From assembly GCF_000010305.1 (NCBI RefSeq), contig NC_012489.1, positions 3,169,646 through 3,233,645 on the forward strand: a stretch of DNA of 64,000 nucleotides, read 5' to 3'. The position numbers and the translations under genes were made by a program. Below the pieces are notes generated by a model. It did not search any database, was not told where the DNA came from, and worked only from the letters and a program-made list of their open reading frames with translations. The stretch comes from Gemmatimonas aurantiaca T-27. Lineage in GTDB: Bacteria > Gemmatimonadota > Gemmatimonadetes > Gemmatimonadales > Gemmatimonadaceae. Shown here piece after piece: positions 40,015 through 47,801 of this stretch (positions are counted from its first letter, which is position 1; each line of letters starts with the position of its first letter).

Positions 40015-41076
40015 GTGTCGTCCGCCATTCTCCCCCAACTCGTGGCCCAGGTCGAAGCCATCGTTGCCGGGACCCGCAGGGCCAGCTCCCCATGGCCCAC
40101 CGGTGTCCCCGCGCTCGATCGCGCGCTGGGGGGCGGCATTCCACGCGGACGGATCACGGAGCTCGTCGGTCCGCTGGCGGTCGGCAAGAGCGGCCTGCTG
40201 CGACAGGTCATCACGCAGGTTCTCGCCACCGGTAGCTGGGCGGCCTGGATCGATGCGACCCGCACGCTCGCGCCAGAGCCTTGGACCGGGATGGGGGCGC
40301 GACTGGTCGTGGTGCGCCTGCCCACACCACACCGCGCGGCATGGACGGCCGATCTGCTGTTACGCAGTGGCGTGTTTGGTCTCGTGGTGATCGACGGCGC
40401 CCCGTCGCTCTCGCGGGTGCAGGGTGTTCGCCTCGGTCAGCTCGCACGCGAACGCGACGCCGCCTGCGTGGTGCTCGAACACACGGGGGCGGGGCCTATG
40501 CATCGGCATCGCCTGACGGGCACCACCCGCCTGCACCTGACGGTGCGCACCCGTCAGCGCGATCGGCTCCAGGCTCCGCAACACGCTCCGCAACACGCTT
40601 CGCAACACACGGCCACGACACCAATGACGATGACGCCCGCAATGACAGTGCCCGGAATGCAGGTGACCGTGGAAAAAGGTGGACTCATCACCGGCAGTCG
40701 TGCTGCCATCGAGGTGGACCGTGTCATCGTCCTGGCGCATCGCTTGTGTGCGCATTCCGAGGTTCCCGATCGGCGCGGGGTGGCGCACAGCACGCGCCGT
40801 CCCTGGATCCCCCGACAAACCGACAGCACGGAACTCCAGCACGCCGACACCGTCTCCGGCGGCGGCATCGGCGTCGTCACCCGTGACCTGTACGGAATTG
40901 GCGTTTCCGGACCAGTTCACTTTGGCGCTGAACGACGTGCCGCAACACAACGCGCGGCGGAACAACGCACGGAATCACGAGCCCCGGAATCACAAGCCGG
41001 CGAGCACCTCACCGAATCTCCATCGAGACTCGGCGAAGCCGCACGCACCCTCGCGAACGCCCCTGCATTGGGATGA
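40015..41076 (+). CDS. imuA: ImuA, RecA-like mutasome accessory protein
   Basis: The 353-residue protein starts at GTG 40015. The RecA/SulA-like core has GGGIPRGRITELVGPLAVGKSGLLRQV with Walker A GPLAVGKS (52-59), the Walker-B-like strand GLVVIDGAPSLSRVQ, and RLGQLARERDAACVVLEHTG. ImuA works with ImuB and DnaE2 in damage-induced translesion synthesis. Odd features are a three-copy 12-bp repeat giving APQHAPQHASQH near residue 190, a Met/Thr-rich stretch, and a ~65-residue Ala/Arg/Glu-rich tail that overlaps imuB. The family is usually shorter. Confidence 0.85.
   Translation: MSSAILPQLVAQVEAIVAGTRRASSPWPTGVPALDRALGGGIPRGRITELVGPLAVGKSGLLRQVITQVLATGSWAAWIDATRTLAPEPWTGMGARLVVVRLPTPHRAAWTADLLLRSGVFGLVVIDGAPSLSRVQGVRLGQLARERDAACVVLEHTGAGPMHRHRLTGTTRLHLTVRTRQRDRLQAPQHAPQHASQHTATTPMTMTPAMTVPGMQVTVEKGGLITGSRAAIEVDRVIVLAHRLCAHSEVPDRRGVAHSTRRPWIPRQTDSTELQHADTVSGGGIGVVTRDLYGIGVSGPVHFGAERRAATQRAAEQRTESRAPESQAGEHLTESPSRLGEAARTLANAPALG
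40573..40608 (+). repeat. Three tandem copies of a 12-bp repeat inside imuA
   Basis: GCTCCGCAACAC occurs at 40573 and 40585, and as GCTTCGCAACAC at 40597. It encodes (APQH)-like units and may expand or contract by slippage without a frameshift. Confidence 0.85.
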
Positions 41077-42913
41077 TCTGCCGCGTGCACTCGCCGTCGA
41101 CACGACACTGCGCGTCGTTTCCATGGCGGCCGGACGACTCGGTATCCGTGCCGGCATGCGCATCAGCGAAGCACGTGCACACTGCGCCACACTCGACGTG
41201 CGTCTGTGGGACAATCAGGCCATCACGGATGCGGTGCTTGCAGGCACGGCCACGCTGCTTACGGCCAGCCCACAGGTGACGCCGGTCATCGGCACCCCAG
41301 GCATGTGGTGGATCGGTGCCACAGGGTTCGATGCCCTGGGTGGCGAAGACCTGTTTGCCCATCTCCTCCTGCAGATCGCGCAGCAGTGGCACCCGCAAGC
41401 GCGTGTGGCCATCGCCGATTCCTGTGTCGCCGCACGTGCCGCCACGTGGGCACCGATCGTACGCAGCACGACGCCCACATCGTCGGCACAACCATCACAC
41501 ACCCGTCAGCAGCGACGCACACCCGGCTGGGAAACCACACCCGCCACGCTGCGTTCGGCAACACAACTCATGATAGGCGCCACCTCGACCGACGACATGA
41601 CCCGCATGTCGATCACGTCGGATGCCTCACCATACATCACCTGCATTCCGTCTGGTCGCTGTGCACACTATCTCGCCCCGGCGCCACTCGGTCTGGTTCC
41701 GATGGCCAGCGAGCTACGTGAAGCGCTGCAGGCGCTCGGGTTGCGCACCGTTGGGGCATTGGCCGCGCTCGAGGCCAGTGATGTGGAGGAACGCTGGGGG
41801 CATGAGGGGCTCGGCGCCTGGCGTCTGGCCCAGGGAGACGACCCACGACGCCCCGGACTCACTCGCGTCGACATGTCGCGCAGTGCCACGGTGGAGTTGC
41901 CCAATGCCGTACACAGCGCCGAACCCGTGCTGTTTGTCGTACGCGCGCAACTGCAACGCCTGGTGCAGGATTGTGTGCGCGATGGTCGCGCGGCGGCCGC
42001 GGTATCCATCACGCTCGTGCTCGATGCCGGCCGGCAGTATCCCATCGAAGATATCGGCAGCGAGTGGGCCGATGACATGACGCCGACACGTTCGGTACGG
42101 GAACACCCGCCGGAAACACAAGAAAGTTGGCCCGAGCGCAGGGGGCCGGAGCCCTCGATGGTGGCGGAGGCGAGTGTATCCATCGACGCCGTGCATATGC
42201 CGGGGATCCTCAACATCCCGCAGCGGACCATCACACGCGAAGTGCGTCCCGCACGTCCACTCGCGCGTCTCGATCCACTGTTCGATCAATGTCGCATGCT
42301 GCTCGAGCGCTGGACCATTCCGGCACCGATCATCGGGGTCACGATCGGCATCCCAGCCACGGCACCACTGGCAGCGGATCAGGGCGATCTGCTGATCCCG
42401 TCGTGGCGTGATGCCGCCATGAACGCAGAAGCCGTGTTTGCACGCCTGCGTGCCGTACTCGATCCGGAACGTCGTGGTGATGTCGTGGTGCATCCCGAAG
42501 CGCGTGACACGCATCGCGTGGAAGGCACCGGCGTGTGGACACCGGCGGACGCTGTTGCGCTGGCGGCCGCACCATTGCCGACGGCTCGCACGTCGACAAC
42601 TGTGGCAATCGTTGCATCGGCAAACCCGACGCCTGCACCTGCATCCGCATCCGCATCCGCAGTGTTGCGTCTGTTGGAGACGCCCGAATCCGTGCGGGTC
42701 GCGGCACCACATGGCGCTCCGGGCATGCTGTGGTGGCGCGGGCGTCGCATCAGGTTCGTCACGGCCCATGGTCCCGAGCGCCTGAGCGGCGACTGGTGGC
42801 GTGGTGACAAGTACGCCCGCGACTACTGGCGATGCCACGCCGAGACCGACGGCACATTGCTGCTCTACTGCGAAGGAGGCCTGCACTGGCATGTGCATGG
42901 TTGGTATGACTGA
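40883..42913 (+). CDS. imuB: ImuB, inactive Y-family polymerase homologue
   Basis: GTG 40883 is preferred because the family N-terminus aligns with VTCTELAFPDQFTLAL; the frame is open back to 40679 but only as antiphase imuA sequence. ImuB is a catalytically dead Y-family homologue that tethers DnaE2 and the beta clamp. Family segments are RALAVDTTLRVVSMAAGRLGIRAGMRISEARAHC, LREALQALGLRTVGALAAL, and the C-terminus GPERLSGDWWRGDKYARDYWRC...LHWHVHGWYD. A ~45-residue Asn/His/Arg/Pro-rich insertion near the N-terminus overlaps the imuA tail. The predicted length is 676 residues. Its stop overlaps dnaE2 by 8 nt. Confidence 0.87.
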   Translation: MTCTELAFPDQFTLALNDVPQHNARRNNARNHEPRNHKPASTSPNLHRDSAKPHAPSRTPLHWDDLPRALAVDTTLRVVSMAAGRLGIRAGMRISEARAHCATLDVRLWDNQAITDAVLAGTATLLTASPQVTPVIGTPGMWWIGATGFDALGGEDLFAHLLLQIAQQWHPQARVAIADSCVAARAATWAPIVRSTTPTSSAQPSHTRQQRRTPGWETTPATLRSATQLMIGATSTDDMTRMSITSDASPYITCIPSGRCAHYLAPAPLGLVPMASELREALQALGLRTVGALAALEASDVEERWGHEGLGAWRLAQGDDPRRPGLTRVDMSRSATVELPNAVHSAEPVLFVVRAQLQRLVQDCVRDGRAAAAVSITLVLDAGRQYPIEDIGSEWADDMTPTRSVREHPPETQESWPERRGPEPSMVAEASVSIDAVHMPGILNIPQRTITREVRPARPLARLDPLFDQCRMLLERWTIPAPIIGVTIGIPATAPLAADQGDLLIPSWRDAAMNAEAVFARLRAVLDPERRGDVVVHPEARDTHRVEGTGVWTPADAVALAAAPLPTARTSTTVAIVASANPTPAPASASASAVLRLLETPESVRVAAPHGAPGMLWWRGRRIRFVTAHGPERLSGDWWRGDKYARDYWRCHAETDGTLLLYCEGGLHWHVHGWYD

Positions 42914-45900
42914 TCACACAGATCCCAGCACGGCCACGAATGTCGACACCGAGTCGACAGAGTCCATACCCAACCCGTATGCCGGTCAGTATGCGGAACT
43001 GCACTGCCATTCGGCGTTTTCACTGCTCGATGGTGCATCGCTCCCGGAGCAGCTCGTCACACGCGCGGCCAGCTTCGGCTACCAAGCACTCGCACTCACC
43101 GATCACGACGAGATGGGGGGCATCGTGCAGTTCGGTGTGGCAGCGCGTGAACGCCAACTCAACGCCATCCTTGGCGTGGAGCTCACAGTACGCATGCCGC
43201 ATCTCGACGGACAGCGCGGCGATCGTCGTACACAGCTCGTATTGCTGGCCGAGACGCGGGAAGGGTATCGCAATATTTCCACGCTGGTGACGCGGGCGCG
43301 CATGGACAGCGAACGGGGACGTCCGAGTGTACCCTTGGCCATGCTCCGCCAGCATGCCGCGGGTGTCACGGCACTCACCGGCGGCCCTCGTGGTTGGGTT
43401 CCGCAGTTGCTTGCCGAAGGACGACAGTACGAAGCCTTCGAAGCCGCACAGGAACTGCACGCCATATTCGGCCAGCATCTCGCCATCGAATGCTGGGATC
43501 ACCGGTTGCCGGAAGAACGGGTACTCGTCGAGCAACTGATTCCGCTCGCCAAGTGGCTTGGTGTGCCCTGGGTGGTCACCAACAATGTGTACTACGCAGA
43601 ACCGAAGGATCGCGCCGTGCACGACGCGTTGAGCGCCCTGCGCCACCAGCGCACACTCGATGAAATGGGGACGCGCCTGCGCCCGAATGCCGAATGGGCC
43701 CTGAAGGACCCGCGGCTCATCTACCAGCGCTGGCGGGGCCTGGAAGAAGGTGTGAGAGCCACACTCGACATTGCCAAACGCTGTGCGTTCCGTCTCGCGG
43801 GGCTCAAACCCGCCATGCCGCCGTTTCCCCTGCCGGACGGTTTCACCGCCGACACCTACCTCGAAGAGATCGTACTCACCGGCGCCCGCGAGCGCTGGGG
43901 TGATCGATTTTCTGATGTACACCGTCAGCAGATCGCGCACGAATTGGCAGCCATCCGCCGGCGCGACTGCGCCACCTTCTTCCTCACTGTCTGGCGGATC
44001 GTGCGACATGCCCGCAGTGAAGGGATCCTCTGCCAAGGGCGCGGCTCGGCGGCCAGTTCTGCCGTCTGCTACTGCCTCGGCGTCACGCCTGTCGACCCGA
44101 TCTATTTCGGCCTGTTGTTCGAACGATTTCTTGGCGATGACGCAACAGAAGAACCTGATATCGACATCGACTTCGCGCACCGAGATCGCGAGCGCATCCT
44201 GCAGCACGTGTACAAGCACTTTGGACGGGAGCACGCGGCCATGGTGTGCGAACAGATCACCTGGGGTGGTCGCAGTGCGGCCCGTGATGCGGCTCGCGTA
44301 CTGGGGTTTTCACCGCAGCAAGGTGATATACTCGCGGACTTCAGCGACCGGCATGGCGCTCATACAACGGCGGATCTCTTCGAAACGGCAGAAGGGCAAC
44401 AACGCCTGACTGCCGCCGGATTCGATCTCACCGATCCGCGTGTGCAACAATTGGCTCCGGTCATGAATGGCCTGCATGAGCTACCCCGACATCGCTCCAT
44501 CCATGTTGGTGGTTTTGTGTTGTCCGATGAACCACTCGGATCACTCGTGCCCATCGAGCCCGCGTCCATGGCCGACCGTACCGTCATTCAGTGGGAGAAG
44601 GACGATCTCGGTCCGGTGGGCATGTACAAAATCGACCTGCTGGGTCTTGGCATGCTCACAGTGGTGCAGGATTGCCTGCGATACCTCCGGCACACCAAGA
44701 ACACGCATATCGACATGGCACACTTCAACATGGACGACAAAGACGTCTATGACACGATGTGCCGCGCCGACACGGTGGGCGTGTTCCAGATCGAGAGTCG
44801 CGCGCAGATGAGCACTTTGCCGCGTCTCAAACCACGGTGTTTCTACGATCTCGTGGTGGAAGTGGCACTCATTCGTCCGGGGCCATTGCAAGGCCAAATG
44901 GTGCATCCCTACCTGCGACGCCGCGCGAAAGAAGAGGCGGTCGACTATCCGCATCCGGATGTGAAGCCGATCCTCGAAAGGACGTTCGGTGTTCCGATCT
45001 TTCAGGAACAGGCGATGCAGGTGGCTATCAAGATGGCCGATTTCACGCAGGCGCAGGCTGACGAACTGCGCAAGACCATGGGGCACAAACGCTCCAAGGT
45101 CCGCATGAAGAAGGTCGAACGACAACTGCGCGATGGCATGGAGAAAAAGAAGATCGATCCCAAGGTCATCGAGCGCATCTGCCATCAGATCAACGGCTTC
45201 GCGGCATTCGGTTTTCCCGAGAGCCACGCCGCCAGTTTTGCACTCATTGTCTACGCCACGGCATACCTGCGCTATCACTACGCCCCCGAATACCTGTGCG
45301 CCATTCTCAACGCACAGCCCATGGGCTTCTACGCCCCCGGCACGCTCATCGAGGATGCCAAGCGTCATGGTGTGGAGGTACGCCCGGTCGACCTGATGCG
45401 CAGTGGATGGGATCATTCCCTCGAACTACCAGACGGGCGCACGCTCATGCCCAACGACGGCACCATCCTCTGGGGGCCTCGTCACACCATCGACGCCACA
45501 CAAACATCCGCCGAACACGTCGCCGTGCGGCTTGGTGTGCGTCTCATCCGCAACCTCGGCTCCAAGGCACGCAAGGTGCTCGAAGCTGCGCTGGCCGACG
45601 GCCCGTTTCGCAGCATCGAAGACGCCGTGTCGCGTGTGACGCTCGATGCGCGTGGATGGCGTGCCCTCGCCGAAGCCGGAGCCTTGGACAGCATGTTCGC
45701 ACACGAACCCCCAGAGCGCCGTCGACGGGTGGCGTTGTGGGAAGTGCTCGCGCTGACCAAAGAACCGCCATTGCCACTCGCTCCCCCACGCCGTGCACCG
45801 CCGCCCACCTCATTGGCCGCGTGCACACCGGTGGAGCTCACCGCCGCCGACTATCGCATGACCGGCGTGTCGCTCGTGGGCCATCCCATGAAACATGCAC

Positions 45901-46247
45901 GCCCCGTGCTCGAACCGAATGGGGTGCGCACCATCCAGGACATCCAGCAGCACGGCAAGGATGGCGAAACCGTAGCCATCGCTGGTGTGGTTATCTGCCG
46001 GCAACGTCCGCCGACAGCCAAAGGGTTTGTCTTCCTCACACTCGAAGACGAAACCGGCATGCTCAACATCATCATCACGCCCAAACGATTTGCACCAAAC
46101 GCCGAGCTCATTGCCAGAGAATCCGTCCTGCTCATTCGCGGGATCCTGCAAGTACAGAGTGGGGCGGTGAATATTCGCGCCGACAAATTCAGGGCGCTCC
46201 AGCTTGGCAGTGGAGAGGATTATGTACCACGTCACGACTACCACTGA
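42906..46247 (+). CDS. dnaE2: Error-prone DNA polymerase III alpha subunit DnaE2
   Basis: ATG 42906, which overlaps the imuB stop, gives 1113 residues. The N-terminal PHP domain starts YAELHCHSAFSLLDGAS. The polymerase core contains CQGRGSAASSAVCYCLGVTPVDP, EPDIDIDFAHRDRERILQHVYKHFG (catalytic DIDID type aspartates), MYKIDLLGLGMLTVVQDCL, PGPLQGQMVHPYLRRR, FGVPIFQEQAMQVA and FGFPESHAASFALIVYA. A C-terminal OB domain follows. The absence of the extended tau-binding C-terminus and the link to imuAB identify DnaE2 rather than DnaE1. It performs SOS mutagenesis with ImuA/ImuB. Confidence 0.94.
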   Translation: MTDHTDPSTATNVDTESTESIPNPYAGQYAELHCHSAFSLLDGASLPEQLVTRAASFGYQALALTDHDEMGGIVQFGVAARERQLNAILGVELTVRMPHLDGQRGDRRTQLVLLAETREGYRNISTLVTRARMDSERGRPSVPLAMLRQHAAGVTALTGGPRGWVPQLLAEGRQYEAFEAAQELHAIFGQHLAIECWDHRLPEERVLVEQLIPLAKWLGVPWVVTNNVYYAEPKDRAVHDALSALRHQRTLDEMGTRLRPNAEWALKDPRLIYQRWRGLEEGVRATLDIAKRCAFRLAGLKPAMPPFPLPDGFTADTYLEEIVLTGARERWGDRFSDVHRQQIAHELAAIRRRDCATFFLTVWRIVRHARSEGILCQGRGSAASSAVCYCLGVTPVDPIYFGLLFERFLGDDATEEPDIDIDFAHRDRERILQHVYKHFGREHAAMVCEQITWGGRSAARDAARVLGFSPQQGDILADFSDRHGAHTTADLFETAEGQQRLTAAGFDLTDPRVQQLAPVMNGLHELPRHRSIHVGGFVLSDEPLGSLVPIEPASMADRTVIQWEKDDLGPVGMYKIDLLGLGMLTVVQDCLRYLRHTKNTHIDMAHFNMDDKDVYDTMCRADTVGVFQIESRAQMSTLPRLKPRCFYDLVVEVALIRPGPLQGQMVHPYLRRRAKEEAVDYPHPDVKPILERTFGVPIFQEQAMQVAIKMADFTQAQADELRKTMGHKRSKVRMKKVERQLRDGMEKKKIDPKVIERICHQINGFAAFGFPESHAASFALIVYATAYLRYHYAPEYLCAILNAQPMGFYAPGTLIEDAKRHGVEVRPVDLMRSGWDHSLELPDGRTLMPNDGTILWGPRHTIDATQTSAEHVAVRLGVRLIRNLGSKARKVLEAALADGPFRSIEDAVSRVTLDARGWRALAEAGALDSMFAHEPPERRRRVALWEVLALTKEPPLPLAPPRRAPPPTSLAACTPVELTAADYRMTGVSLVGHPMKHARPVLEPNGVRTIQDIQQHGKDGETVAIAGVVICRQRPPTAKGFVFLTLEDETGMLNIIITPKRFAPNAELIARESVLLIRGILQVQSGAVNIRADKFRALQLGSGEDYVPRHDYH

Positions 46248-46281
46248 AATGGAAACACGGGAGAACTACGTTGACGGGTCA

Positions 46282-46418
46282 TAGGGGGCTTGGTAGTACG
46301 TGAGAGGTGGTAGGTGATAGGACTCAGCAAGCAATGGTGCGAGCAGAGCGATGCCCCAAAACACCAAAGCCAGTCCACCCTACCACCTACGTCATATCAC
46401 CTATCACCAAGCCCCCTA
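46282..46418. repeat. 137-bp intergenic element with perfect 13-bp inverted ends
   Basis: TAGGGGGCTTGGT (46282-46294) is mirrored by ACCAAGCCCCCTA (46406-46418). Inside, GGTGGTAGGTGATAGG on one side and CCTACCACCTACGTCATATCACC on the other pair imperfectly, so most of the element can fold on itself. It occupies the 276-nt gap between dnaE2 and the next gene. It could be a MITE/REP-like repeat or a large terminator. Confidence 0.6.
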
Positions 46419-46523
46419 AAACCCCGCGCCCGCAAAGGAATGCGCCGAAGCATCGGTCCCCTCCCCGACACTCCGGCGCACACCACCTCCAACCCACGAC
46501 CAACAAGAAGACCAGCGTCGCAA

Positions 46524-47801
46524 CTACCCCTTCGCCAACGCCCGAATCGCCTCGACAAACAAATCGATCTCGTGTAACGCCGTGAACACATTCGGAGTCA
46601 CACGAATGCACTCGAATTCGTCGGCCACAAAACGGGGGCGCACATGAATCCCCCACCGCTGCTGTAGCTGGTCGGTGAGTGCCTGTGCCCCGAGCGATTT
46701 GAGACGCATGGCCCCGATCGCGCAGGACTGCGCCGGATCACGCGGTGTGAGCAATTCCACACCCGGCAATGCCGCCACACCGTCCATCCAGCGATCACGC
46801 AGATACCGCAGCCGGGCGGCCTTGCGTTCCCCACCGATCTCCTCGTGAAAAGTGACCGCGTCGCTCACCGCCACCCGCAGGGAAATGGGATACGTGCCGA
46901 TCGATTCGAACTTGCGAATATCCCCATCCTGCGACGGATCCGCGGCAAGCAGCGGCCAAAGGCGGGTGATCACCTCCTTGCGCACATACAACAACCCATT
47001 GCCCACCGGCGCGCAGAGCCATTTGTGCAACGACGACCCGTACACATCACATCCGAGGTCCGCGATGGTGAACGGGAAATGCGCAAACGAATGACCACCG
47101 TCCACGATGGTGAAAATTCCACGTCGACGCGCTTCGTCGCAGATGCGCCGCACCGGGAAGATCTGTCCCGTCGTATAGGTGATGTGACAGATATGAATCA
47201 CCTTGGTGCGCGGTGTGACCGCCGCCATCACGCGCTCATACAGATCGTCGTGTCCTGAAGGCGGCACCGGATAACGCACCAGTTTGAGCACCACCCCGTC
47301 GCGCCGCTCACGCTGCCGCCACGCCGTGATCATGCGGGGATAGTCCTGCGTGGTGCTCACAATCTCGTCGCCACGCTGCAACGGAAGGCCCATCTGCGCG
47401 ATCTGCAGCGACTCACTCGTATTGCGCGTGAGCGCCAGCGTTTCCGGATCACACTGCAGCACCGACGCCAGCCGCCGACGCACATGCTCCACCTCGGGAT
47501 ACAGCAACGTATCCACATACAGCGAAGGGCTCATGTTGGTGAGCGTCCAGTACCGCTGCATGGCCTCGGCGACCACGCGCGGCGCTGGGCTGACGCTCCC
47601 CGAATTCAAATTCACGTGGTTGGCGTCGATCGTGTACGCCTGACGCACGCGCATCCAGTACGCCTCGTCGTCAGCCACGACCTCCGGCGCATACCCCTCC
47701 ACGCGCCGATTCTCCTCACGGACCAGGGTCAACGCGTGTGTGACGGCGTCGTCCATCAACGGCAGGCCGCCCATTGCGGCGACAAAGGCTCGGCGATCCA
47801 T
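46524..47801 (-). CDS. Class V aminotransferase-fold PLP enzyme, paralogue A
   Basis: The 425-residue enzyme resembles isopenicillin-N epimerase-like members of the class V family. Features: NHVNLNSGSVSPAPRVVAEAM, ALTRNTSESLQIAQMGLPL, CHITYTTGQIFPVRRICDEA, the Asp motif TIVDGGHSFAH, and PLP Lys in YGSSLHKWLCAPVGNGLLYV. The N-terminus MDRRAFVAAMGGLPLM looks like a degraded twin-arginine/signal segment shared with paralogue B at 59287-60642. The substrate is unknown. It is monocistronic with no strong ribosome site. Confidence 0.85.
   Translation of the reverse strand: MDRRAFVAAMGGLPLMDDAVTHALTLVREENRRVEGYAPEVVADDEAYWMRVRQAYTIDANHVNLNSGSVSPAPRVVAEAMQRYWTLTNMSPSLYVDTLLYPEVEHVRRRLASVLQCDPETLALTRNTSESLQIAQMGLPLQRGDEIVSTTQDYPRMITAWRQRERRDGVVLKLVRYPVPPSGHDDLYERVMAAVTPRTKVIHICHITYTTGQIFPVRRICDEARRRGIFTIVDGGHSFAHFPFTIADLGCDVYGSSLHKWLCAPVGNGLLYVRKEVITRLWPLLAADPSQDGDIRKFESIGTYPISLRVAVSDAVTFHEEIGGERKAARLRYLRDRWMDGVAALPGVELLTPRDPAQSCAIGAMRLKSLGAQALTDQLQQRWGIHVRPRFVADEFECIRVTPNVFTALHEIDLFVEAIRALAKG

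Follow-up and report, generated by a model that had tools for sequence, protein, structure and literature searches.

A dispersed gene-less hairpin of Gemmatimonas aurantiaca T-27 and its probable relation to IVP genes bordered by inverted 7-mer arrays

The 137-bp element at positions 46282-46418 of the window, the 64,000-nucleotide stretch of Gemmatimonas aurantiaca T-27 DNA analysed here, is probably a gene-less hairpin satellite of a selfish unit designated the IVP element, in which a PF05635 gene is located between inverted arrays of 7-mers. PF05635 is the family of the 23S rRNA intervening-sequence protein (IVP), a four-helix bundle. Multiple dispersed copies of the hairpin were identified in the genome, and its arms are in common with those of a copy bearing an IVP gene. 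Across bacterial phyla, IVP genes were as a rule found to be bordered by arrays of 7-mers, and a second genome contains one full-size copy and many gene-less ones; elements were also seen to be present or absent between related species. That IVP genes pair with 7-mers, that the units match and point inward, and that gene-less satellites accompany them connects two open questions, the abundance of 7-mers and the function of IVP, and a single protein with a single DNA array would suffice to test both. The bracketing of IVP genes thus offers a first clue, open to experiment, as to why repeats of 7 bases are so common in bacterial genomes.

The hairpin and its copies in the G. aurantiaca genome

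The element is intergenic and lies between two convergent protein genes, the plus-strand gene ending at 46247 and the minus-strand gene at 46524. The upstream neighbour (42801-46247, plus strand; ORF coordinates with a predicted start, Pfam-tested) is a DNA polymerase III alpha-type gene, presumably dnaE2, the name also used in the sequence-only reading. The convergent neighbour (46524-47801, minus strand; ORF and Pfam) is a class-V aminotransferase-type gene. Three consecutive plus-strand open reading frames at 40015-46247 resemble imuA, imuB and dnaE2 and presumably form a mutagenesis cassette, the Pfam test having covered the last frame only.

The perfect 13-bp inverted ends described in the sequence-only reading were recovered, with TAGGGGGCTTGGT at 46282-46294 on the plus strand and its exact reverse complement at 46406-46418 on the minus strand. 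Exact 13-mer inverted pairs less than 200 bp apart occur at five places in the window, the element among them (21 overlapping pairs in total), and 20 first-order Markov windows contained between 0 and 6 such pairs, with none in 12 of the 20. The arms proved longer than the ends first described, with 46 nt each at 78% complementarity. The left arm (46276-46321, plus strand) is a degenerate 7-mer array which begins with the outer GGGTCATAGGGGGC and continues with GGTAGTA, CGTGAGA, GGTGGTA, GGTGATA and GG; the right arm (46379-46424, minus strand) is the inverted array. The outer ends of the element are themselves 7-mer repeats. Self-matching peaked at lags 7 and 14, with 0.55 and 0.58 for the left arm and 0.61 and 0.54 for the right, and all other lags were at 0.40 or below. 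The unit GGTGGTAGGTGATAGG, with at most three mismatches, was matched five times in the window against 0.18 expected, and four of these matches are inside the element, in line with the repeated interior units that had been noticed before. These units are degenerate 7-mers of the AGGTNNT type, and AGGTGAT and AGGTGGT belong to the AGG/AGT-core type seen across bacteria. Between the arms is a loop of 57 nt without an IVP gene (46322-46378), the right part of which is GGACTGGCTTTGGTG on the minus strand and contains the conserved inner end of the arm.

RNA folding gave a single long hairpin for either strand, at -61.1 kcal/mol (z -7.2) for the plus strand and -74.4 kcal/mol (z -7.0) for the minus strand, and none of 200 shuffles was equally stable. 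The earlier suggestion of an unusually long terminator after dnaE2 was not confirmed: no intrinsic terminator, defined as a G+C stem followed by a T-run, was found, and this reading was rejected. Membership of an Rfam family was also rejected. For ten loci from this genome and from a second genome (G004, described below), only plant-type microRNA-precursor models were obtained at E<=0.1, all below gathering scores; they all fall on the long hairpin of one locus (L099) and were taken as chance because of its palindromy.

The genome, a single contig of 4,636,964 bp, was searched with a sequence model of the arm. This gave 26 matches at E<=10, of which 22 were at E<=0.0014, in agreement with the multi-copy element proposed earlier and contrary to a single-copy sequence. 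Eighteen of these 22 arms form nine inverted pairs and four are solitary. Five pairs have the (+ -) order of the window element and four are arranged back to back (- +), so the arm may be a unit by itself. In eight pairs the gap is 12-48 nt and folding is strong; in the ninth it is 437 nt. With at most two mismatches, the unit GGTGGTAGGTGATAGG was matched at 17 places in the genome, compared with two for a reversed control. Arms of the same copy are no more alike (similarity 0.68) than arms of different copies (0.69), and the same holds for the G004 family (0.82 and 0.83), so that compensating changes are not indicated. A single arm of the family at 3089440-3089800 (L097) has as its outer end the tight palindrome GAGCCCCCTACGACC-GGTCACT-GGTCGTAGGGGGCTC.

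Among the congeners searched, the hairpin family is nearly confined to this species, with 21 arms here versus one weak match in one of 20 other congeners. This distribution bears on the view that the hairpin serves the host as RNA, either as a 3'-end stabiliser or as a factor-dependent bidirectional terminator between convergent genes. The convergent setting and the strong folding on both strands agree with such a role, but no T-run terminator was found and the restricted distribution of the family speaks against it; we consider a host function improbable.

The full-size relative and other IVP genes of the same genome

The ninth arm pair, at 995421-995969, brackets a PF05635 match (23S_rRNA_IVP, E 4.7e-24). 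Over 57 nt, its right arm (995913-995969) and that of the window element share 96% identity. The left outer flank and left arm of the IVP-bearing copy were aligned to window positions 46361-46495 on the opposite strand with 79% identity over 135 bp, and the outer right flank of the window element (46425-46495) is 83% identical to 995350-995425, where the IVP-bearing element has its outer left flank. Similarity to another genomic copy extends beyond 46418, to about 46495. The 82-bp flank, which contains a small hairpin, was found at E<=0.01 at only two places in the genome, namely at the window copy and at the IVP-bearing copy. Since right arm and outer flank are in common, the two elements are direct relatives, and the window element is a gene-less member of the IVP-element family; from the alignments, their arms have apparently been exchanged. 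Outside the window element, the small hairpin consists of 46441-46456 and 46465-46480 (TGCGCCGAAGCATCGG and CCGACACTCCGGCGCA) and is common only to the IVP-bearing copy.

The PF05635 gene at 995421-995969 contains one in-frame TGA and is probably dead for this reason. As it is the sole gene-bearing copy, the family is probably decaying in this genome, and the copy in the window is most likely left over from spread in the past. In Rhizobium leguminosarum, an IVP gene (L156, 2001-2324) also contains an in-frame stop, so that the decay of IVP genes is not confined to a single lineage.

The two remaining IVP genes (at 3026600 and 3663765) are likewise located between long inverted repeats, of different sequence (30 nt at 93% and 31 nt at 90%; 35 nt at 89%). 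A clear 7-period is absent at two of the three IVP loci of this genome.

The only gene found between the arms of the family in this genome is PF05635 and not a transposase. For REPINs mobilised by a RAYT, the accessible text of PMC3116915 describes extragenic inverted doublets, a long hairpin and singlets beside doublets. These features are recognised here, together with extragenic gene-less copies and a gene-bearing locus with the same repeats. In contrast to REPIN/RAYT systems, no RAYT was found in this genome, the associated gene codes for a four-helix bundle, and the arms are 7-mer arrays. The search with PF01797 (Y1_Tnp) gave no match at E<=0.01 in the complete genome, whereas the same search gave matches in six of 14 control genomes. 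The REP-like character proposed in the sequence-only reading was thus not borne out, and a REPIN is a very improbable explanation. Spread by means of a reverse transcriptase within this genome was rejected as well, since a search of the genome with PF00078 gave no match.

IVP genes and flanking 7-mer arrays in Gemmatimonadaceae and other bacteria

For Gemmatimonadaceae, PF05635 was identified in 78 of 99 sampled genomes. Thirty loci with full flanks were analysed (27 from 27 other genomes and the three described above; three of 33 were dropped for short flanks) by aligning the left 400 bp to the reverse complement of the right 400 bp. A score of at least 15.5 was obtained for 28 of the 30 loci, compared with a maximum of 13.5 for windows farther out at the same loci and a 95th centile of 14 for mismatched flank pairs, a null that is inflated by homologous loci (maximum 196). 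Two of the 30 loci are without flanking inverted repeats. The repeats are mostly tandem 7-mers, with some 8-mers, and the unit varies by locus: the best lag was 7 at 17 of the 28 loci, 14 at two, 8 at five and another value at four, the last class including the two intact IVP loci of G. aurantiaca. No end sequence common to all loci was identified across the family.

These results also bear on the possibility of a conventional MITE that depends for its movement on a transposase, DDE or other, encoded at another place, and that carries the IVP gene as a passenger; the transposon ends would then resemble TAGGGGGCTTGGT or GGTCACAGG. The window element is short, multi-copy, intergenic and gene-less and has inverted ends, all of which are MITE-like features. 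However, PF05635 is the sole gene found between the arms, both here and at 28 of the 30 family loci with different arms, and a common end sequence, as needed by a single DDE transposase, is absent across the loci (the transposase survey in this genome covered Y1_Tnp only). A MITE is therefore regarded as a poor explanation, with a small chance of being correct, and the satellite of an IVP element is preferred.

For bacteria in general, 575 IVP relatives from named genomes were confirmed, and the 80 best by protein similarity were chosen. The flank score was determined for 75 of the 80 loci, and the period and orientation for 62, with loci cut by contig ends omitted. At 58 of the 75 loci the left/right match exceeded 13.5, the 95th centile of mismatched flanks, and at 29 it exceeded 19.5, the 99th centile, both values of this null being inflated by similar units. 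The best lag in the 300-bp flanks was 7 at 46 of the 62 loci, versus 8 of 62 control windows taken 1.1-1.4 kb away, and self-match of at least 66% at lag 7 was found at 35 loci versus three controls (n=62). Arrays of at least 60% on both sides were present at 42 of the 62 loci. The AGG/AGT core, where present, almost always points inward: this was the case in 31 of 47 left and 33 of 45 right arrays, while one left and one right array point outward and the remaining arrays contain no such core or have it in both directions. No rRNA match was identified at any of the 70 named loci scanned, and these loci are therefore not rRNA intervening sequences.

The units on the two sides of a locus are similar (0.70 within a locus versus 0.47 between loci, with none of 5000 permutations above 0.525), and unit similarity tracks the similarity of the IVP proteins (Mantel r 0.29, p 0.0005; 0.26 with GC held). 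Both comparisons were based on 55 loci that have arrays on either side, from a total of 76 comprising the 62 named loci and 14 from Gemmatimonadaceae which were selected for a clear 7-period, so that this set is biased to clear arrays. Shared ancestry can in part contribute to the correlation.

In a sample of plasmids, the best lag was 7 at 11 of 13 loci and the inverted-repeat score was at least 15 at 10, the other three being without inverted repeats at that score; a single strain contributed two of the 13, which are matching loci on two of its plasmids, and the locus from a Gemmatirosa plasmid may duplicate a locus of the family set.

Gene-less copies in other genomes and the order of events

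When the left arms of 24 IVP elements were used as a joint query, matches were found in all 24 source genomes, many of them on contigs other than that of the IVP gene; several of the units are mutually similar. In G004, the arms of the IVP-bearing element are 88% complementary with 452 nt between them. They recur at 13 further places examined, and 11 of these are two-armed hairpins with loops of 48-62 nt and unrelated flanks. The gene-less loops in this genome did not arise from the IVP copy by simple deletion.

Absence of such an element from related species was identified at two sites. In the congener G101, 10 bp separate the stop codons of the two flanking genes, versus 276 bp here, a distance taken from the printed junction of a contiguous locus in an assembly that is 59% complete. 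Rhizobium tropici has an IVP element, with arrays of the AGGCAAT type, between nuoC and nuoD (L113, about 1955-2460), on the same strand and within the nuo operon, whereas Shinella and two Sinorhizobium records contain a short nuoC-nuoD spacer without an IVP element. A pair of near-identical sites with and without the element was not found among the congeners, the G004 copies or in the comparison of Rhizobium with Shinella and Sinorhizobium, where the relatives are distant, and no target duplication was recognised, the outer ends being 7-mer repeats. Of the earlier proposal of a non-autonomous mobile element, a dispersed gene-less hairpin repeat with a full-size gene-bearing relative and a congener without the element has stood; the movement of the elements, like the binding of 7-mers by IVP, is what we infer.

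The main rival explanation concerns the order of events. Here, the 7-mer hairpins would be older and independent, IVP genes would settle in their loops, and the 137-bp element would be an empty target. Several findings fit: gene-less pairs outnumber gene-bearing ones in both genomes examined, the loops in G004 are not what is left of its IVP copy, and rRNA intervening sequences, according to the available part of PMC4990558, are found in helices 9, 25 and 45, each of which originally ended in a small tetraloop that was replaced. On the other hand, the arrays vary by locus and yet match between left and right, and point inward, over many phyla, and the sequence of the unit tracks that of IVP. 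Hairpins preceding the IVP genes are thus considered unlikely, although less so than the other alternatives, and the gene-less satellite remains the preferred reading.

Proposed mechanism and relation to known systems

IVP is not known to have a catalytic centre. An IVP oligomer could recognise its own type of 7-mer, in the simplest case as folded RNA or as single-stranded DNA, and this recognition together with host enzymes might lead to the intergenic spread of both gene-bearing units and gene-less hairpins. The solved IVP from Xanthomonas is a pentamer, as given in the accessible part of PMC4990558, where the function of S23p/IVP proteins is stated, in a paper on Coxiella, to be not known.

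The rRNA intervening sequences with S23p of Leptospira and Coxiella, as far as described in the available text of PMC4990558, are alike in having a PF05635 gene in a stem of complementary ends. In the Coxiella sequence, two or three tandem 7-mers (GACAGAT) are located upstream of the S23p frame, which fits the link between IVP and 7-mers. Unlike these sequences, the elements described here lie outside rRNA, form dispersed families with gene-less copies, and have inverted 7-mers on both sides. The window copy has complementary stem ends, contains no S23p/IVP frame, and is not located in 16S or 23S rRNA.

Intergenic 7-mers have been reported before, with the units GGGAATC in Xanthomonas and GGGGA(C/T)T in Nostoc, and with 70 and 75 convergent inverted pairs in two Xanthomonas genomes (PMC4692102, in the part available). 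TAACTGA repeats are described for Beggiatoaceae, cyanobacteria and Bacteroidetes in the accessible portion of PMC4679880. For 7006 prokaryote genomes, the SPADE survey reported 7-mers as the most abundant intergenic tandem repeats, with a wide species range, and its authors saw no clear clue to the function of this excess (PMC6344855, available sections). The repeats of these three papers are likewise tandem and between genes, and the sections available name no IVP-type partner protein, whereas the arrays described here bracket IVP genes. In the literature searched, to which most subscription journals did not belong and which was accessible in part, no report tying 7-mer arrays to IVP genes outside rRNA was found.

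A wider proposal can be put forward tentatively, and we hold it to be possible with somewhat less than even chances. The most abundant intergenic tandem repeats of prokaryotes, the 7-mers, would be cis-acting sites of IVP/S23 proteins, and IVP genes with their inverted arrays would represent a bacteria-wide class of selfish elements with hairpin satellites and with no known transposase, a few of which, the rRNA intervening sequences, would have inserted into rRNA.

Avd of the diversity-generating retroelements is a related four-helix bundle, and a relation between IVP and Avd is noted in the accessible part of PMC10053308. One IVP analysed here matches NF033474 with an E value of 1.3e-5, below the cut-off; in contrast to those retroelements, the G. 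aurantiaca genome is without the reverse transcriptase match mentioned above.

For a Rhizobium IVP, no match was found in phage records. On plasmids of Anabaena sp. 90 and Pseudanabaena galeata (L251, 1495-1863, and L254, 1501-1860), an IVP gene is located between cas6 and cas4. Both of these IVP genes have 7-mer arrays, with different units, and in Anabaena the type I-D cas1d follows.
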